Shown here: positions 23,331 through 31,776 of the stretch, piece after piece
Layout: the number at the start of each line of letters is the position of its first letter
Numbering within the stretch: position 1 is the stretch's first letter
Source of the DNA: Haliea sp. E1-2-M8
GTDB taxonomy: Bacteria; Pseudomonadota; Gammaproteobacteria; Pseudomonadales; Halieaceae
NCBI RefSeq assembly: GCF_030649675.1
Contig: NZ_JAUTDR010000002.1
Span: 124,001-188,000 of the forward strand
DNA length: 64,000 bases
Reading direction: 5' to 3'
The notes under the pieces: model-generated
What the model was told of the DNA's origin: nothing
Databases searched by the model: none
The model's input: the letters and a program-made list of their open reading frames with translations, nothing else
Made by a program: the position numbers and the translations under genes

Positions 23331-24650
23331 TTACATCAGGGCAAACTTGGCGATGAAGATCAGCGCCAGGAACCAGGCGCCGGGTGAAATATCCCGGTAT
23401 CTGCCGACACACAGCTTGATCGCGACATAGCTGATGAAACCGACCGCGATCCCGTTGGCGATGGAAAACGTCAGCGGAATCATCACCACTGTGAGCAGCG
23501 CCGGCACCACCTCGGTCATGTCCTCCCACACCAGGCTCTGCAGGCTGGTCAGCATCAGCATAGCAACGTAGACCAGCGCCCCCGCAGTCGCGAAGGCCGG
23601 TACCATGGCAGCCACCGGCGCAAAGAAAATTGCCACCAGAAACAGGGTGCCCACGGTAACCGCAGTCAGGCCCGTGCGGCCGCCGGTCGCAACACCGGCG
23701 GCACTCTCCACGTAGCTGGTCACCGGGGCGCAGCCGAGGAAGGCGCCGAATACGCTGGAAGTGCTGTCCGCCTTCAGCGCCCGGTCCAGGTTGCGGATGC
23801 TGCCGTCCGGGTTCACCAGGCCGGCGCGAGTGGCGACCCCCAGCAGGGTACCCGCGGTATCAAACAGGTTCACAAACAGGAAGGCGATAATGACGCTGGT
23901 CATGGCGACATCCAGGGCACCGCGAATGTCCAGTTGCATGAACACGGGCGCCAGGCTCGGCGGCGCCGCCACCAGCCCCTGGTACTGCACCAGGCCAGAG
24001 CCCAGGGCGATGCCGGTAATGCCCAGAATGCCGATGATTATCGCGCCGTGCACCTGGCGGATGGAAAGGATTGCAATGACCAGAAAACCCAGCGCCGCCA
24101 AAAAAGGCTCGGGTGCCGTGAGGTCGCCCAAGGTGAGAAAGGTGGCCTCGCTGGCAACGATGATGCCGCCGCTTTTGAGCCCAATGAAACCCACGAACAG
24201 GCCCACGCCAGCGCCCATGGCCACGCGCAGGTCCAGCGGTATGCTGTCCAGCATCCAGCGCCGCAGGCGGGTGACACTCATGATCACAAACAGCACGCCG
24301 GCCAGGAATACTGCCCCCAGCGCCACCTGCCAGCTGTAGCCCATGTCGGCCACCACGGTGTAGGTAAAAAATGCGTTCAGTCCCATGCCCGGCGCCAGCC
24401 CCACCGGCCAGTTGGCGTACAGGCCCATCAAGTAGCAGGCCAGCGCCGACGCCAGGCAGGTAGCAACAAACGAGGCCTGCGGGTCCATGCCGGCGGCCGC
24501 CATCATCTGCGGGTTGACGAAGATGATATAGGCCATGGTGACGAAGGTGGTGGCGCCTGCAATCAACTCGGTGCGGACGGTGGTACCGTGTTCGGATAAC
24601 CCGAAAACTCGCTCCAGAGGGCCTGCCGCAGTCTGGTTACCTTGCTCCAT
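23331..24650 (-). CDS. AzgA-type purine base permease (NCS2 superfamily)
   Basis: This polytopic inner-membrane transporter has 439 residues and about 12-14 helices. Hallmarks are a start MEQGNQTAAGPLERVFGLSE, then TFVTMAYIIFVNPQMM, GLAPGMGLNAFFTYTV, FLFVNLFDTAGTLLGVA and SYVESAAGVATGGRTGL. The AzgA group imports adenine, guanine or hypoxanthine by proton symport. The open frame reaches 25346, but that part overlaps the phosphoribosyltransferase on the other strand and is not protein-like. The ATG at 24650 fits the family. It is divergent from the phosphoribosyltransferase, suggesting a shared control region in 24651-24788. Confidence 0.92.
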   Translation of the reverse strand: MEQGNQTAAGPLERVFGLSEHGTTVRTELIAGATTFVTMAYIIFVNPQMMAAAGMDPQASFVATCLASALACYLMGLYANWPVGLAPGMGLNAFFTYTVVADMGYSWQVALGAVFLAGVLFVIMSVTRLRRWMLDSIPLDLRVAMGAGVGLFVGFIGLKSGGIIVASEATFLTLGDLTAPEPFLAALGFLVIAILSIRQVHGAIIIGILGITGIALGSGLVQYQGLVAAPPSLAPVFMQLDIRGALDVAMTSVIIAFLFVNLFDTAGTLLGVATRAGLVNPDGSIRNLDRALKADSTSSVFGAFLGCAPVTSYVESAAGVATGGRTGLTAVTVGTLFLVAIFFAPVAAMVPAFATAGALVYVAMLMLTSLQSLVWEDMTEVVPALLTVVMIPLTFSIANGIAVGFISYVAIKLCVGRYRDISPGAWFLALIFIAKFALM

Positions 24651-24788
24651 GGTGCTGCTTGCTCCCTCTGCCAGGCAAGTGCGAAAAGGGCGCAGTTTAC
24701 GCAATCGCCGCGGGGGGCACCATAGCCGAAAAGCTGTGCTAACCTCTGCGCCTTCGCCGCCCCACCATCGCTTGAGGAAAGCACCGTC

Positions 24789-25367
24789 ATGCACAAGTAC
24801 TACATCAGCGCCCAGCAGTTGCTGGAAGACTCCTTCAGACTGGCCTGGCAGGTGTATACCAGTGGCTATCGGCCCAACTACATTGTCGGCGTCTGGCGCG
24901 GCGGTGCGCCGGTGGGGATTGCAGTGCAGGAGCTGCTCGACGTATTGGGGCTGGAGGCGGACCATATCGCCATCCGCACCTCCTCTTACACCGGCATTGG
25001 CGAGCGCAGCCGCCACGTCAAGGTGCACGGCCTGACCTACCTCATCAAACAGCTGGAATCCGAGGATTCGCTGCTGATCGTCGACGACGTGCACGACTCC
25101 GGCCTCTCCATAGACCAGGTCATCCACGATCTGCGCCAGGCCTGCAAGAAGAACACGCCGGAGATCCGCATCGCCACCCCATACTACAAGCCAGGCAACA
25201 ACCAGACCGACCGGGTGCCGGATTACTACATCCACGAAACGGCGGACTGGCTGGTATTCCCCCACGAACTGCACGGCCTGACTGCCGCGGAGATCCGCGC
25301 CAACAAGCCCGAGCTCGCCAGCATCATGCCGGAGCTGGAGCAGCACCTCACCACTAAGAGTCGATAA
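24789..25367 (+). CDS. purine phosphoribosyltransferase (hypoxanthine/guanine type)
   Basis: This cytosolic enzyme of 192 residues has the PRPP-binding loop LLIVDDVHDSGLS (about 97-109) and an upstream VGVWRGGAPVGIAVQELLD. The family turns a free purine base plus PRPP into the nucleotide. Divergence from an AzgA permease supports base salvage: import followed by phosphoribosylation. Substrate choice (hypoxanthine, guanine or xanthine) is not evident. It ends 5 bases from the convergent cupin gene. Confidence 0.88.
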   Translation: MHKYYISAQQLLEDSFRLAWQVYTSGYRPNYIVGVWRGGAPVGIAVQELLDVLGLEADHIAIRTSSYTGIGERSRHVKVHGLTYLIKQLESEDSLLIVDDVHDSGLSIDQVIHDLRQACKKNTPEIRIATPYYKPGNNQTDRVPDYYIHETADWLVFPHELHGLTAAEIRANKPELASIMPELEQHLTTKSR

Positions 25368-25372
25368 GCGCG

Positions 25373-25954
25373 CTATTTGCGGGTGTAAGCGCGCACCACA
25401 TCAGCGTGTTGTGGAAATTCCGCCAGCAATTCAGCACGTTTGCCCAGGGCCATGTCGGCATAGTCGAAACCCGGGGCAACCGCCTCGCTGATCAGCCCGT
25501 ACTCCCCCGCCGGAAGGTGTGACGCCTTCCAGACCCCGCCGTGCACGGTCAACTGCAGGCGCTGGCCAGCGGCCAGGTCCGGCCCCAGCACTGCTTGCTC
25601 AAGGCGCCCGTCCGGATGCAGCAGGTAATAGTGCACCGGCGCACCGAGATGGTAGAAGTGCACGATGTCGGACTCGTTGCGGTGCCAGTGGCCAATCGGT
25701 GAATCATTCGTCAGCAGGTAGTGAATGGAAGTCATGGTGTAGCGCGGCCCGCGCGGGGTCTCTACCTGCGGCCGGTGGTCGGGCTGAAAGGTGCGGGCAA
25801 AATAGCCGCCCTCGACGTGGGCCTCCAGGCCGAGGGTGGCGATGACAGTCCTCTTGTCCGGTAGTGTCACGGTAGCCTCCTCGGCAACGATACGTTCAGC
25901 TCCGGCGATCAACGCCACCACAGCACAGATGAACGCGACGCTTGCGGTTCTCAT
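25373..25954 (-). CDS. exported DUF985 cupin-like protein
   Basis: This 193-residue protein has a signal peptide (about 1-24, hydrophobic VAFICAVVALIAGA, likely cut after VAEE or just before) and a DUF985-type cupin core: LEAHVEGGYFARTF, the metal-ligand-like segment IGHWHRNESDIVHFYHLGAP, GVWKASHLP and a C-terminal VAPGFDYADMALGKR. Most DUF985 proteins I know are cytosolic, so export is unusual. It is translationally coupled to the upstream amidohydrolase (ATGA overlap). The substrate is unknown. An isomerase or binding role for a sugar-like or nucleoside-derived compound is only a guess. Confidence 0.85.
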   Translation of the reverse strand: MRTASVAFICAVVALIAGAERIVAEEATVTLPDKRTVIATLGLEAHVEGGYFARTFQPDHRPQVETPRGPRYTMTSIHYLLTNDSPIGHWHRNESDIVHFYHLGAPVHYYLLHPDGRLEQAVLGPDLAAGQRLQLTVHGGVWKASHLPAGEYGLISEAVAPGFDYADMALGKRAELLAEFPQHADVVRAYTRK

Positions 25955-27375
25955 GCGTCGTTCTCCTGCTGCTCCCGCAGCGCATTGCGAATACGGTCGC
26001 TGGCCCGGGTCACCGCCGCGCGCAGCGCTGGCTCCTCAATGGTGAGTACCTGGCGGTCCCGCATCAGCACCTGCCCGGCGACAATAGTCGTCTGCACGTC
26101 ATGGCTGTCGAGCACATACACCAGGTGCGATTGCACGTCGTACAGGGGCAGGTGCCGGGTCTGGGTGACATCGAGCTGGATCATGTCCGCCTGCATTCCC
26201 ACCTTCAGCTGGCCGATCACCTCGCCCATATGGATGGCCGCCGCACCCAGCCGTGTCGCCATGGCCAGGGCCTGGCCGGCAGGCATTGCGGTGGGCTCAC
26301 CGCTCGCCACTTTGTGCAACAGGGCCGCCATGCGTACTTCTTCCCACAGGTCGAGATCGTTGTTGGACGCCGCGCCATCAGTACCCAGACCGACATTCAC
26401 GCCCGCCGCCAGCATCGCCGGCGCCGGGGAGATACCGGCACCCAGTTTCATATTGGACGTGGGATTGTGAATCGCACCCACCCCGGCGGCGGCGGTCAGG
26501 GCGATATCCTCCGCGTCCAACTGCACCATATGCGCTGCAATCAGCGGCAATTGGTACATACCCAGCCCCGCCACATGGCGCACTGGACTGGTGCCATACT
26601 CCGCGGCGATAAACTCGGTCTCCGCCGGCGCCTCAGCCAGGTGCATGGACACCACGGCATCCAGCTCAGTGGCTTTCTCCACCGTGGCCTGCAGGTGTTC
26701 CGCCGAGACCGTGTAGGGCGCATGTGGCGCGAAGGCGGGTGTAATGCGTGGATGCCGGCCCTGCCAGCGGCGGACAAAATCCGCAGCCGCGGCAAAGGAG
26801 TCGTCCCAGCCGGCAAAGCCGGGGCTGGGGTAGTCAATGTGCGGCGCGCCGATCACGGCTCGCAGGCCACAGCGCTCGACCACGCCGGCGATTTCGTCCG
26901 GGTAGAAGTACATGTCGACAAAGGTGGTGGTACCGCCGCGGATCATCTCCCAGCAAGCGAGTTCAGTACCGGTGCGCACGAACTCAGGGGTAACAAAGCG
27001 CCCTTCCATCGGGAAAACATACTGGTTCAACCAGGTCATCAGATCGAGGTCGTCGACCATGCCCCGAAACAGGGTCATGGCGGTGTGGGTGTGGCCATTG
27101 ACCAGGCCGGGCATCAGCACCCGGCCTTCACCCGCGATAGTGGCTTTGGCCACCCAGGCCCGGTCGATCCGCTCCCGGGGGCCCACATCCACGATCACAC
27201 CGTCGCGCACCACCACCGCGGCATCCCGCAGCTCCGCTTGTTCGGCATCCATGGTCAGCAGGTAATCTCCGTAGACGATGAGATCGGCACCGCTGGCCGG
27301 GCTCGCCGTTGCAAGCAATGGCGAACACAAACAGCCCAGCAAAAGCCAGGGCGCGAACAGTTTCAACACAGGCAT
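25951..27375 (-). CDS. exported amidohydrolase, MtaD/chlorohydrolase-type deaminase
   Basis: This 474-residue protein has a signal peptide (about 1-30, LKLFAPWLLLGCLCSPLLA). The metal site has the first HxH in GLVNGHTHTAMTLFRG, further histidines in FAPHAPYTVSAEHL and SMHLAEAPAETE, and the final Asp in GLGTDGAASNNDLDLW. The closest groups are 5-methylthioadenosine/S-adenosylhomocysteine deaminases, guanine deaminases and chlorohydrolases, which act on purines and triazines. Unlike those enzymes it appears to be exported. Within a purine salvage locus, a periplasmic adenosine or guanine deaminase is a reasonable inference. The start ATG at 27375 is divergent from the TonB receptor across a 216-base gap. 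Confidence 0.87.
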   Translation of the reverse strand: MPVLKLFAPWLLLGCLCSPLLATASPASGADLIVYGDYLLTMDAEQAELRDAAVVVRDGVIVDVGPRERIDRAWVAKATIAGEGRVLMPGLVNGHTHTAMTLFRGMVDDLDLMTWLNQYVFPMEGRFVTPEFVRTGTELACWEMIRGGTTTFVDMYFYPDEIAGVVERCGLRAVIGAPHIDYPSPGFAGWDDSFAAAADFVRRWQGRHPRITPAFAPHAPYTVSAEHLQATVEKATELDAVVSMHLAEAPAETEFIAAEYGTSPVRHVAGLGMYQLPLIAAHMVQLDAEDIALTAAAGVGAIHNPTSNMKLGAGISPAPAMLAAGVNVGLGTDGAASNNDLDLWEEVRMAALLHKVASGEPTAMPAGQALAMATRLGAAAIHMGEVIGQLKVGMQADMIQLDVTQTRHLPLYDVQSHLVYVLDSHDVQTTIVAGQVLMRDRQVLTIEEPALRAAVTRASDRIRNALREQQENDA

Positions 27376-27591
27376 TCTCCCGTCCCGCGCTTGCGGGGAC
27401 TCAGTACAGTTGGCTGCCCATCAAGGTGGGCAAATTCTGGTATTTTTGCCGCGGGGGGCTGCGGCCAACGCTACACACGTGTAAATTTTGCACAAATGAG
27501 CCGCCAAGGCCAGCCGCGGGCACCAGAACCCGGTATCGCTCCGCAAGAAACCACTCACAGCACCCCACCCGTTTACTCAGGAGAGACATCC

Positions 27592-29751
27592 ATGAAAAGG
27601 ATCACCGTACCACGGTTGGCCCTGACCGCCGCGATAGCCGCAGCGACTACAGCGACCGCCCCAGCCATGGCGCAGCTGGAGGAAATCATCGTCACGGCGC
27701 AGAAGCGTGAGCAAAGCCTGCTGGATGTCCCCCTGTCTGTTGCGACCATGAGCGGCGAGCGTTTTTCTGCCATCTTTGAAGGCGGCGCGGATATCCGCGG
27801 CCTCTCCGCCCGGGTACCTGGCCTCTATGTCGAATCATCCAATGGCCGCGTAGCGCCGCGCTTCTACATCCGCGGGCTGGGCAATATCGACTTCGATCTC
27901 GCCGCGTCCCAGCCTGTGTCCATCATCATGGACGAGGTGGTCAAGGAGAATGTGGTGCTGAAGAGCTTCCCCCTGTTCGACGTTGAGCAGGTGGAAGTGC
28001 TGCGTGGACCACAGGGCTCCCTGTTCGGTCGCAACACCACCGCCGGTATCGTCAAGTTCGATTCCCGCAAGCCCACCCAGGAGATGGAGGGCCGGGCCAA
28101 GGTGGACATCGGCGAACTGGATACTCTTAATTTCGAGGGCGCCGCTGGCGGCGGCCTCACCGATACCGTCGCCGGGCGCGTCGCGGTGCTGTATCAGAGC
28201 CGCGGTGACTGGATCGACAACGGCTTTACCGGGGAAGACGATGCCCTGGGCGGCTTTATCGAAAAAGCCGTCAAGGGTTTCCTGCTGTTCGAGCCCAATG
28301 ACCGCATGAGCGCGCTGCTGGGCGCACACCACCGCGACCTGGATGGCACCGCCGCGGTGTTCCGCGCCAACATCTTCAACACCGGCAGCAACGACCTCAA
28401 TGAAAACTACGACCGTGACACCGTGTTCTTCGACGAGGGCGACAACAACCCGCAGGAGTACCGTAACACGGGCGTCAACCTGAAAGTGGAGTACGACTTT
28501 GACAGCGTGACCCTGACCTCCATCACCGCGGGCGAGGATGCCAAGGGTCGCAGCCTCGGCGATATCGACGGCGGCTTCGGCGCCGCCTTCCTGCCGTTCA
28601 TGGGGCCGGGCTTTATTCCCTTTCCCTCCCAGACCCAGGACTCGGCGGATGTACAGCAGTTCACCCAGGAGTTCCGTCTCTCCAGCAACAGCGGCGAGCG
28701 ACTGAACTGGCAGGTAGGCATGTTCTACTTCGACTCCGAACTGGATGTGGAGACCAACCCCTTCTTCGTCCCGCCCACCACGGTCACCCATGAAAACACC
28801 TCCGTCGCCGTGTTCGGCCAGGCCGATTACGCACTCACCGACGCCTGGACCCTGACCGCAGGTCTGCGCTGGACCGACGACGAAAAGGACTTCTTTGCCC
28901 CCGGTTTCCAGGAGAGCGTGTCCGATGACCAGGTCAGCGGCGACCTCGCCCTGTCCTTCGCCGCCGGCGATACCTCCCTGTATTGGGCCAAGGTCGGCAC
29001 CGGCTTCCGCGCACCCACCATTCAGGGCCGGGACGTCGCCTTTGGTGCGCCACCCTCGGTTGCCGACTCCGAGACCATCACCTCCTTCGAGGTAGGCTAC
29101 AAGGCGGAGTACCTGGACGGGCGCATGCGCCTCAACGCGGCGCTGTTCTACTACGAAGTGGATGACATCCAGTTCACCGCCGTGGGTGGCGTGAACAACT
29201 CGATCCAGCTGGTAAACGCCGGGCAGGGTACCGGCCAGGGCGGGGAACTCGACGTCGAGTGGGCCCTCACCGACAACTTTGCCGTCACCTTCGGTGCCGG
29301 CTATGCCGATACTGAAATCGAGGACAGCAGCCTGCGCGTCGGCCCCTGTGGCAGCGGCGCCTGCACCATCCGCAACCCCGTTGATGGCGATGGCCTGGTG
29401 TTCGTCGACGGCAACCCCTTCCCCCAGGCGCCCGAGACCACGTTTAACTTCACCGCCTCCTGGACCCTCCCGGTAGGCAACGAGTCCGAGCTGTTCGCCT
29501 TCACCGACTGGTCCTACCAGGGTGACACCCAGCTGTTCCTCTACGATGCCGCCGAGTTTGTCACCGACGGCCAGTTTGAGGGCGGCCTGCGCCTGGGCTG
29601 GCGCCTGCGTGACGGCAGCTACGAAGTGGCCCTGTTCGGTCGCAACATCACTGACGAAGAGAATGTGCAGGGCGCGATTGACTTCAACAACCTGACCGGC
29701 TTTACCAACGAGCCGCGCGTCTGGGGTCTGTCGCTGTCCAGCACATTCTGA
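27592..29751 (+). CDS. TonB-dependent outer membrane receptor, probable nucleoside/purine uptake
   Basis: This 719-residue receptor starts MKRITVPRLALTAAIAAATT. The signal peptide ends about PAMAQ and is followed by a TonB-box-like stretch EEIIVTAQKREQSL. The plug domain spans about 40-150 (RFYIRGLGN, VEVLRGPQGSLFGRNTTAG), then a 22-strand-type barrel to the C-terminal ALTS-like end LSLSSTF. It is driven by TonB and imports scarce large nutrients across the outer membrane. GGAGAG before the ATG decides the start. Ribokinase follows after 10 bases and a nucleoside permease-family gene overlaps that, so the operon points to nucleoside uptake. This is inferred from context, and the receptor sequence itself does not name the ligand. 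Confidence 0.92.
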   Translation: MKRITVPRLALTAAIAAATTATAPAMAQLEEIIVTAQKREQSLLDVPLSVATMSGERFSAIFEGGADIRGLSARVPGLYVESSNGRVAPRFYIRGLGNIDFDLAASQPVSIIMDEVVKENVVLKSFPLFDVEQVEVLRGPQGSLFGRNTTAGIVKFDSRKPTQEMEGRAKVDIGELDTLNFEGAAGGGLTDTVAGRVAVLYQSRGDWIDNGFTGEDDALGGFIEKAVKGFLLFEPNDRMSALLGAHHRDLDGTAAVFRANIFNTGSNDLNENYDRDTVFFDEGDNNPQEYRNTGVNLKVEYDFDSVTLTSITAGEDAKGRSLGDIDGGFGAAFLPFMGPGFIPFPSQTQDSADVQQFTQEFRLSSNSGERLNWQVGMFYFDSELDVETNPFFVPPTTVTHENTSVAVFGQADYALTDAWTLTAGLRWTDDEKDFFAPGFQESVSDDQVSGDLALSFAAGDTSLYWAKVGTGFRAPTIQGRDVAFGAPPSVADSETITSFEVGYKAEYLDGRMRLNAALFYYEVDDIQFTAVGGVNNSIQLVNAGQGTGQGGELDVEWALTDNFAVTFGAGYADTEIEDSSLRVGPCGSGACTIRNPVDGDGLVFVDGNPFPQAPETTFNFTASWTLPVGNESELFAFTDWSYQGDTQLFLYDAAEFVTDGQFEGGLRLGWRLRDGSYEVALFGRNITDEENVQGAIDFNNLTGFTNEPRVWGLSLSSTF

Positions 29752-29761
29752 CGGTGCAGCC

Positions 29762-30718
29762 GTGAGCAGGCTGGTTGTTGTCGGCTCCAGCAACACCGAC
29801 ATGGTCATCCGGGTGCCGCACTTGCCGGCGCCCGGAGAGACCGTGCTCGGCGGCAGCTTCAGCACTGCCGGGGGCGGCAAGGGCGCCAACCAGGCGGTGG
29901 CGGCGGCGCGGGCAGACGGTGACGTCAGTCTGGTTGCCTGCGTTGGCAAGGATGACTTCGGCTACGCCGCGCTGGCGGCCTTTGCCGTAGTCGGTATCAA
30001 CACCGATCACTGTATGGTCGACCCGCAAGCGCCCTCGGGGGTCGCCCAGATTCTGGTGGACCCGAGCGGTGAGAACAGCATAGCGGTGGCACCGGGCGCC
30101 AATGCCTGCCTGCTACCGCGCCATATCGACACGGCCGGCCGTCTTTTGGAGAAGGCCGCCGTGGTCCTGCTGCAGCTGGAAACCCCGATCGAAACCGTGC
30201 TCGCAGCGGCCCGCCGCGCCAACCAGGCGGATGCGGTGGTTATCCTGAATCCGGCTCCGGCGCAATTGTTGCCAGCGGAGCTGTACCCGCTGCTCCAGAT
30301 GCTCACCCCCAATGAAACCGAGGCCGCGCTGCTGACCGGCATTCAGGTCCGGGACCCGGGTTCCGCTGCGGCCGCGGCCGACACGCTGCACCAGCGTGGC
30401 GTCGGCACTGTGCTTATCACCCGCGGCGCCAACGGCGTGTACCTCTCCCAGAGCGATGACTCAAGGGAGCCCCTGCGCAGCGAGCACCCGGGTTTCCCGG
30501 TGACGGCAGTAGACACTACCGCAGCCGGTGACGTGTTCAACGGCTGCCTGGCCGTCGCCCTTACCGAGGGCTTGCCGTTACCGCAGGCCATACGCTTTGC
30601 CCAGGCCGCGGCCGCATTGTCGGTACAGCAGCCCGGTGCGCAGGCAAGCGCGCCGACCCGAGCTGCGATAGAATCCTTCCTCATCACCCAGGCAACGACG
30701 GATACACAAACACCATGA
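29762..30718 (+). CDS. rbsK: ribokinase (PfkB family)
   Basis: This 318-residue sugar kinase starts at GTG 29762. PfkB signatures are the N-terminal GGGKGANQAVAAARADG and the C-terminal DTTAAGDVFNGCLAVALTEG with the catalytic Asp. LTPNETEAALLTG is the usual ribokinase central motif. It phosphorylates ribose to ribose-5-phosphate. Ten bases separate it from the TonB receptor, and its stop overlaps the next gene by 4 bases (ATGA). No Rbs transporter or ribose binding protein is nearby, so ribose would come from nucleoside cleavage. Confidence 0.93.
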   Translation: MSRLVVVGSSNTDMVIRVPHLPAPGETVLGGSFSTAGGGKGANQAVAAARADGDVSLVACVGKDDFGYAALAAFAVVGINTDHCMVDPQAPSGVAQILVDPSGENSIAVAPGANACLLPRHIDTAGRLLEKAAVVLLQLETPIETVLAAARRANQADAVVILNPAPAQLLPAELYPLLQMLTPNETEAALLTGIQVRDPGSAAAAADTLHQRGVGTVLITRGANGVYLSQSDDSREPLRSEHPGFPVTAVDTTAAGDVFNGCLAVALTEGLPLPQAIRFAQAAAALSVQQPGAQASAPTRAAIESFLITQATTDTQTP

Positions 30719-31776
30719 TCAAATCTGCATTACTTTCCCTGCTCTGCGCCCTGTTGGCATTTCCCGCGCTGGCGGAAACTGCCGCTTCAGGCCCGATTCC
30801 GGTCAAGGTCGTGGTAGTCACCATGTTCGAGACCGGGGCCGACAGCGGCGATGAGGCCGGGGAATTCCAGCGCTGGTACGAGCGCGTGCCGCTGGATACC
30901 CGCTTCCCGGCACCGCATATGCACCACGATATCCACATGAACCTGGAATCCGGCGTTCTCGGCATCGTTACCGGCATGGGCACGGCCAATGCCGCCGCCA
31001 GTGTCATGGCACTGGGCCTGGACCCGCGTTTTGACCTGAGCAAGGCCTACTGGCTGGTGGCGGGGATCTCCGGCTTCGACCCGGCCGACGCCTCGCTGGG
31101 CTCCGTGGCCTGGGCCGAGTGGCTGGTAGACGGCGATCTGGCCCATGAGATCGACACCCGGGAGATCCCCGAGGACTGGGAGCACGGCTACTTTCCCCTG
31201 TTCAGCCAGGGCCCCGGCGATCCTGAGCGCAGAAATTACAATCTGGGCGAAGTCTTCCGGCTCGACACCGGGCTGGTGAACTGGGCTTACGACCTCACCA
31301 AAGGCATGCAACTGCCCGATCACGAAACCCTGGCCGCGGCCCGCAAGCCCTATGTCGACTACCCGGTGGGACAACAACCGCCGAAAGTGATCAAGGGTGA
31401 CCAGCTGGCCGCAATGACCTTCTGGCACGGCAAGCTGCTCAACGACTGGGCCAACGAGTGGGTCAAGTACTGGACCGATGGCGAAGGCGAGTTCGTCAGT
31501 TCAGCGATGGAAGACACCGGTACCTATCAATCGCTCACCTACCTGCACGAAGCCGGCAAGGTCGACAAGCAGCGGGTGCTGGTGCTGCGCACCGCCTCCA
31601 ACTTCACCCTGCCGCCCCCCGGCAAGACCGCCGCGGAATACCTGCGCGAAGAGCAGCACGACAGCTACGCGGGCCTGGATGCCGCGCTGGAAAATGCCTA
31701 CCTGGTGGGCATGAAAGTGATCGAGACCCTGCTCGCGGACTGGGACAAGCATGCGGTGACGCCGCCCGGGCAGTAG
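30715..31776 (+). CDS. periplasmic purine nucleoside permease (NUP) family protein
   Basis: This 353-residue protein has a clear Sec signal (about 1-20, LLSLLCALLAFPALAE) and the NUP domain: VKVVVVTMFETGADSGDEAGE, MNLESGVLGIVTGMGTANAA, AGISGFDPADASLGSVAWAE and later SSAMEDTGTYQSL. The family was named from yeast purine nucleoside uptake. The fold resembles nucleoside phosphorylases, and there is no membrane segment after the signal peptide. A periplasmic nucleosidase or binding protein is therefore more plausible than a true permease (inference). Overlap with rbsK (ATGA) ties it to ribose release. Confidence 0.88.
   Translation: MIKSALLSLLCALLAFPALAETAASGPIPVKVVVVTMFETGADSGDEAGEFQRWYERVPLDTRFPAPHMHHDIHMNLESGVLGIVTGMGTANAAASVMALGLDPRFDLSKAYWLVAGISGFDPADASLGSVAWAEWLVDGDLAHEIDTREIPEDWEHGYFPLFSQGPGDPERRNYNLGEVFRLDTGLVNWAYDLTKGMQLPDHETLAAARKPYVDYPVGQQPPKVIKGDQLAAMTFWHGKLLNDWANEWVKYWTDGEGEFVSSAMEDTGTYQSLTYLHEAGKVDKQRVLVLRTASNFTLPPPGKTAAEYLREEQHDSYAGLDAALENAYLVGMKVIETLLADWDKHAVTPPGQ

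Follow-up and report, generated by a model that had tools for sequence, protein, structure and literature searches.

Gene content and conservation of the locus

We analysed a window of 64,000 nucleotides, the whole stretch of DNA under study, from contig NZ_JAUTDR010000002.1 of Haliea sp. E1-2-M8. At positions 23331-31776 it carries seven genes, including those of a TonB-dependent receptor (TBDR) and of a member of the purine nucleoside permease (NUP) family, which together probably serve to scavenge purine nucleosides. All seven genes listed in a first-pass annotation of this DNA were recovered as open reading frames (ORFs; genes were called mechanically, as the longest ORFs), and each protein exceeds the cut-off of its best Pfam family. 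The first four code for a nucleobase permease of the NCS2/AzgA type (23331-24650, minus strand; PF00860, Xan_ur_permease, 148 bits), a phosphoribosyltransferase probably involved in purine salvage (24789-25367, plus strand; PF00156, Pribosyltran, 37.1 bits), an exported DUF985 cupin (25373-25954, minus strand; PF06172, Cupin_5, 151.5 bits) and an exported amidohydrolase of the methylthioadenosine/S-adenosylhomocysteine (MTA/SAH) deaminase group (25951-27375, minus strand; Amidohydro_1, 209 bits). They are followed on the plus strand by the genes of a 719-residue TBDR of what we call clade A (27592-29751; PF07715 Plug and PF00593 barrel domains), of a ribokinase with a GTG start (29762-30718; PfkB, TIGR02152, NF008353) and of the exported NUP (30715-31776; PF06516, 389.6 bits, cut-off 27). 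The amidohydrolase and cupin genes overlap by 4 bp, as do the ribokinase and NUP genes (ATGA), and 10 bp separate the receptor gene from that of the ribokinase. By simple hydropathy, as opposed to a signal-peptide predictor, a hydrophobic N-terminus of the signal type is present in NUP, the amidohydrolase, the cupin and the TBDR, and absent from the ribokinase and the phosphoribosyltransferase. Neither Rfam models nor tRNA searches gave a match anywhere in the window.

The order permease, phosphoribosyltransferase, cupin, amidohydrolase, TBDR, ribokinase (where present) and NUP is also found in Haliea, Kineobactrum, Parahaliea and Halioglobus, with one additional permease gene in the latter two genera. 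Seongchinamella and Mangrovimicrobium harbour only a partial version of it. This recurring gene order is not a product of chance.

Predicted fold and export of the NUP protein

Databases name the NUP family a transporter, and the first-pass annotation had kept the term permease for the window protein while placing nucleoside cleavage in the periplasm. The second of these claims fits the fold that we predict, and the first does not. In an AlphaFold2 model built from 41 sequences (mean pLDDT 85.6), NUP appears as a soluble alpha/beta nucleosidase. The model aligns with MTA/SAH nucleosidases (MTANs) with a VIA Z-score of 23.1 and a root-mean-square deviation of 2.5 over 228 residues, and with the periplasmic MTAN of Aeromonas (5b7q), which is likewise exported, with a Z-score of 22.9; among the 50 VIA matches listed, all are MTA/SAH nucleosidases or futalosine hydrolases. 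Foldseek gave an E-value of 2.5e-11 (TM 0.49 by query, 0.69 by target). NUP is 13-16% identical to these nucleosidases over aligned residues and about 100 residues longer. At the sequence level, it has no relevant match in PDB, and its match to the futalosine hydrolase model TIGR03664 (E 0.00097) is under the cut-off. In the section consulted, a study of fungal NLRs assigns the profile of NUP to the superfamily of purine and uridine phosphorylases (PMC9815663). Residues E39, M265, E266, R292, S295 and N296 are invariant across 41 NUPs, and on inspection by eye they line up with AMEEE, EMEG and RxxSD, the motifs of MTANs.

Beyond its signal, NUP is nowhere as hydrophobic as a membrane helix: past residue 30, its most hydrophobic 19 residues average 1.41 on the Kyte-Doolittle scale, versus 2.5 in the neighbouring permease. 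We collected 80 NUP loci, which are the best matches to the window NUP out of 177 and are hence related (two of them, L076 and L077, have identical NUPs). A script detected a hydrophobic leader in 77 of the 80 homologues, and 41 of the 77 also have a lipobox. Among the three that it scored as leaderless, a leader is plain to the eye in two (L098 and L118), and the third (L130) was mis-anchored. By its predicted fold, then, NUP is a putative nucleosidase and not a permease, and its location is most likely periplasmic.

That NUP is a true inner-membrane permease, as annotated, is very improbable. The family name speaks for it; we take this name to originate from the purine nucleoside permease of Candida albicans, presumably itself a PF06516 member. 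In the excerpts consulted, the Candida protein is described as a transporter of nucleosides: with it, yeast that requires adenine can grow on adenosine, but it confers no sensitivity to toyocamycin, unlike a genuine transporter, and its authors read this as transporter selectivity (PMC9431476). Extracellular cleavage with subsequent uptake of adenine would account for both results, an interpretation that is ours and not that of the authors. In contrast with the reported transporter, the Haliea protein would be an exported soluble enzyme according to its model, and this model and the low hydropathy past the signal led us to reject the permease assignment.

Additional genes were noticed beside NUP at some loci. 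An exported-looking gene of the phosphorylase superfamily (PF01048) adjoins it at L073:8851-9816, and another exported-looking gene, whose N-terminus resembles that of the L073 copy, does so at L082:8923-9840; these genes possibly code for a second periplasmic nucleosidase. In some Halieaceae (L039, L040, L041), ORFs of about 700-757 residues with a NUP domain are found near the normal NUP gene. The NUP gene at L210:7359-8560 is broken into two ORFs next to an intact receptor ORF, by a frameshift that is either real or due to assembly.

Linkage between receptor and NUP genes

In 57 of the 80 loci, a TBDR gene was called no more than two genes from NUP, and in 72 no more than seven. The nearest receptor is one gene away in 40 loci, two in 17, three in 4, four in 5, five in 1 and seven in 5; it is absent from the remaining 8, in three of which (L068, L083, L103) NUP lies near a contig end. 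In all 72 linked loci the receptor gene is upstream of NUP, and in 59 of them it is on the same strand. The 80 loci contain 72 receptor ORFs for 1248 called genes, compared with 3 TBDRs among 255 genes in 15 control regions of NUP-bearing genomes. Some purine, nucleoside or ribose marker is present within seven genes of NUP in 76 loci. A deaminase-like gene, either for an amidohydrolase or for an adenosine deaminase of the exported or cytosolic kind, is present in 70. With the same markers and threshold, both counts are zero in 15 random regions and around 20 other receptors of the host genome. The link between receptor and NUP is real and reaches beyond Halieaceae. The first-pass proposal of a locus that unites a TBDR with exported purine enzymes and with base salvage is borne out, and the locus is conserved.

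Other genes of purine metabolism were observed at single loci. A 5'-nucleotidase gene lies directly 3' of NUP at L067, and L028/L068 harbours an allantoinase-like gene with further apparent ureide-pathway genes, identified by eye.

Two receptor clades and their genomic contexts

The window TBDR scores 56.2 bits for the Plug domain (PF07715, cut-off 23.9) and 126.6 for the barrel (PF00593, cut-off 27). Its closest other match in the host genome is 35% identical over residues 17-435 (E 1.6e-47). Identity as a siderophore receptor was rejected, its score of 120.1 against TIGR01783 being far under the cut-off of 223.5. By best match, we could label the receptors of 73 of the 80 NUP loci, 53 as clade B and 20 as clade A; the 73 include a partial ORF in L083 that does not figure among the 72 receptors of the linkage count. 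In a quick tree without bootstrap, clade A is separated from all 22 other host receptors with an SH-aLRT value of 100, and clade B also holds together with a value of 100. Besides these 22, the tree included 32 of the 37 loci of the survey described below, L211, L212, L213, L215 and L238 being omitted as near-duplicates. In BLASTP, the window receptor matches B receptors only over short stretches, with 23-34% identity. The link between receptor and NUP has arisen with two receptor clades, and mapping the A and B labels onto the NUP tree requires three changes.

To see what clade A receptors adjoin elsewhere, we surveyed 37 further loci (L161-L167 and L210-L239), from sources including draws of 390 and 369 genomes; a match at a contig end (G520) was left out. 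A nucleoside gene is present within six genes of the receptor in 12 of the 37, compared with 0 of 20 other host receptors (Fisher p 0.005) and 0 of 15 random regions scored with the same marker list. As 15 NUP-linked receptors were excluded from the 37, the proportion of 12/37 understates the link within Halieaceae. L212 and L213 of this survey are identical with L059 and L063 of the NUP set. At L216 and L217, the arrangement is receptor, exported adenosine deaminase and NUP.

Six linked cases lack NUP, and they represent six separate label changes on the receptor tree. The clade A gene is found with cdd-nupC-deoB-deoD-upp // deoA-deoC (L167), with deoC and, three genes on, an exported-looking amidohydrolase (L218), with an exported-looking adenosine deaminase and deoD (L221), with deoD (L228) and with deoB-nupC-deoC-tdk-upp (L235). 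As for the sixth (L225:163-9652), it combines genes for an exported-looking nucleoside hydrolase of the inosine-uridine (IU) type, a ribokinase, a sugar ABC importer, the clade A receptor and a LacI/RbsR-like regulator, and is apparently a complete nucleoside-ribose uptake locus without NUP. To judge from sequence, the partnership between receptor and nucleosidase recurs with different receptors and, at L225, with a different nucleosidase, a stronger case than the first-pass annotation had made. The refuting case named in that annotation, a receptor family shared with loci for distinctly other ligands and not consistently tied to nup or rbsK, is not what we found: members of the receptor's wider clade occur at other loci with nucleoside genes. 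Unrelated TonB receptors seem to have been adopted for the same nucleoside use in other bacteria.

A ribose-phosphate pyrophosphokinase-like gene, identified by eye (L165:12323-13321), is located two genes away from a clade A receptor that has no other such link.

A putative pathway for purine-nucleoside scavenging

We consider it likely, with a probability of about 0.7, that the locus is an envelope-spanning purine-nucleoside scavenging system. What the sequences show is gene content, synteny, linkage, the receptor clades and, by model, the NUP fold; the ligand, reactions, localisation and order of steps are inferred. The clade A receptor would import nucleosides across the outer membrane at the expense of TonB-transmitted energy. 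In the periplasm, the exported amidohydrolase would deaminate adenosine-type nucleosides, as suggested by its family and by the exported adenosine deaminases that replace it elsewhere, and NUP, an exported enzyme with a predicted MTAN fold, would hydrolyse nucleosides to base and ribose. The freed base might then enter the cell through the NCS2-type permease and be salvaged by the phosphoribosyltransferase, both proteins being assigned by family and their specificities predicted. Where a ribokinase is present, free ribose could be converted to ribose 5-phosphate in an optional branch.

The amidohydrolase belongs to its superfamily by Pfam, and it scores 469.3 against NF006549 (TRZ/ATZ, MTA/SAH deaminase group), below the cut-off of 540. 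The host genome encodes a second copy, 41% identical and without a leader. We propose that the window protein is a periplasmic adenosine-type deaminase. It passes none of the NCBIfam models listed, and neither does the phosphoribosyltransferase, which scores 31.6 against HGPRTase (cut-off 150) and 31.1 against xanthine phosphoribosyltransferase (cut-off 138). Of the first-pass label 'purine phosphoribosyltransferase', the general family (PF00156) therefore holds and the word 'purine' rests on context; similarly, the base permease is a PF00860 member, and calling it AzgA-type says nothing more specific than that.

The kinship of the amidohydrolase with MTA/SAH deaminases, the MTAN fold of the NUP model and the existence of a periplasmic MTAN in Aeromonas (5b7q) would also suit a locus handling the sulfur nucleosides MTA and SAH instead of common ribonucleosides, in which the amidohydrolase deaminates these compounds and NUP cuts the inosine analogue to hypoxanthine and methylthioribose. 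We regard this as quite improbable: ribokinase-like genes are found near NUP in 16 of the 80 loci and no methylthioribose kinase was noticed there, the deaminase at other loci is of the adenosine deaminase family, and clade A receptors occur beside deo, cdd and nupC genes.

Returning to nucleoside scavenging, the window ribokinase passes two NCBIfam equivalogs (TIGR02152, 357.1 versus 341; NF008353, 337.9 versus 299.65). Ribokinase acts on free ribose, which fits hydrolysis by NUP better than phosphorolysis. The gene is dispensable: of the eight Haliea-genus genomes that keep the TBDR and NUP, six gave no ribokinase match at E <= 1e-30. The ribokinase described in the first-pass annotation is present, but it is an accessory, and we rejected it as a core part. 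Several genera of Halieaceae encode, between the receptor and NUP, a permease of the ureide/sugar-transport type (PF07168/PF06800). Its five carriers among 38 genomes all have a ribokinase match as well, which suggests a ribose permease. The host possesses the ribokinase without this permease of its sister genera, which leaves a gap in its ribose branch, and six of the eight genus genomes have neither. The absence of both from most of the genus points to the base, and not ribose, as the constant product.

It is tempting to speculate further that the two TBDR clades of Proteobacteria are nucleoside receptors swapped beside the same periplasmic nucleosidase, and that the NUP family comprises exported hydrolytic nucleosidases with an Asn-type site favouring 6-oxopurines. 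In such a combined scenario, which we hold to be slightly less likely than not, the preference for 6-oxopurines would account for the exported deaminase, of the adenosine or amidohydrolase type, travelling with NUP.

Evidence to be set against the pathway

Several observations weigh against nucleoside scavenging through the receptor. To begin with, nucleosides are small enough to pass through porins. As for NUP, hhalign comparisons with three MTANs were non-significant (probability 0.1 per cent), so that the case for a relationship is carried by the model and by the published superfamily assignment. In the motif alignment made by eye, an Asn apparently replaces the catalytic Asp of MTANs; trimeric purine nucleoside phosphorylases that prefer 6-oxopurines also carry Asn at that position. 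Two of the three A/B label changes on the NUP tree depend solely on L095, which has a long branch, and L115. The linkage is also narrower at a larger scale. In an even draw across the phylum, NUP was found above the cut-off in 25 of 398 genomes, host included, and of 25 NUP regions taken from the 24 genomes other than the host, 3 (L184-L186) have a TBDR within two genes. The receptor is farther away in L183 and weak in L187. No receptor occurs in the other regions, most of which belong to a second NUP group and among which is L192, where the NUP ORF was not called. The receptor link thus belongs to one NUP lineage.

The survey of clade A receptors also calls for caution. Without the NUP loci, 6 of 31 are linked compared with 0 of 20 controls (p 0.07), the IunH marker was derived from L225, itself one of the six, and the control receptors all come from the host genome. 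By the markers used, 25 of the 37 loci lack a nucleoside gene, so that nucleosides may not be the ligand of the clade as a whole, and the direct neighbours of the unlinked receptors reveal no theme. A Pfam search of 101 proteins shorter than 1000 residues encoded within two genes of 26 receptors yielded no family with more than three members among the first 25 of 88; L225 was among these 26 and was counted as linked after its neighbours had been examined.

These unlinked clade A members would also agree with a receptor whose ligand is unrelated (a siderophore, haem, cobalamin or other), its adjacency to NUP being inherited or regulatory and nucleosides entering through porins, with the inner pathway unchanged. 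The best NCBIfam match of the receptor is indeed to the siderophore subfamily, and its best match among solved structures is the pesticin receptor. We nevertheless find this alternative unlikely, given how far the siderophore score falls below its cut-off and that none of the 20 other host TBDRs has a nucleoside neighbour. Moreover, the two clades alternate at NUP loci and clade A joins differing nucleoside genes on separate branches, for which inheritance alone does not suffice.

Relationship to known TonB-dependent systems

The majority of TonB-dependent receptors in marine and soil Proteobacteria are, to our knowledge, without an identified ligand. The Rus system of Bacteroides thetaiotaomicron, described by Glowacki et al. 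in 2020, is reported to comprise a SusC/SusD-type TonB receptor, ribokinases and a nucleoside hydrolase. In the parts of two reports that we consulted, it supports the use of nucleotides and nucleosides as a carbon source and includes a putative ribose transporter, RusT (PMC11699363, PMC12596196). The Haliea locus, which would likewise take up nucleosides through a TonB receptor, is best read as analogous to Rus but made of different parts. We found no SusD match among the seven proteins of the locus, and the receptor scores 45.7 against SusC/RagA, for a cut-off of 368.25. In place of the IU-type nucleosidase of Rus, the Haliea nucleosidase would be of the NUP/MTAN-fold type, and the locus also encodes an exported deaminase, a base permease and a phosphoribosyltransferase. 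Unlike in Rus, its constant product would be the purine base, with optional use of ribose.

Given the existence of Rus, the first-pass statement that the receptor's ligand would be new is only partly right. For Proteobacteria, no nucleoside-specific TonB-dependent receptor was recognised among the papers listed by searches on TBDR-nucleoside links, judged mostly by titles and the beginnings of abstracts, and the words nucleo-, purine and neighbor- are absent from a survey of marine TBDRs (PMC3400609). Other proteobacterial TonB nutrient loci include those of predicted histidine and hydroxyproline receptors, according to the excerpt consulted (PMC5343134). As in these loci, the Haliea TBDR is tied to catabolic genes and inner-membrane transporters; the nutrient would differ, being nucleosides.

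Other features of the locus

A 14-bp near-palindrome, AAATTCTGGTATTT (also given as AAATWCTGGTATTT), is located at 27432-27445, in the promoter region from which the amidohydrolase and receptor genes diverge. Even with two mismatches allowed, it matches nowhere else in the window. With its fifth base left free, it occurs at the corresponding place in all seven genus genomes searched (G000-G006), and in six of them it is the only genomic copy. One of three more distant genomes also has a copy somewhere in its sequence. We consider this sequence a candidate operator. A sigma-70 promoter scan found none, for a chance expectation of 1.9, and in a terminator scan the scores were no better than those of shuffled sequences.

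In 21 of the 80 loci, a cupin gene is found no more than seven genes from NUP. DUF985 cupins recur in purine loci (window 25373-25954, L072, L079, L080, L083, L090), with or without a clade A receptor and often beside a puuE-like gene, so labelled by eye; this recurrence hints at a purine-related role for the cupin family.

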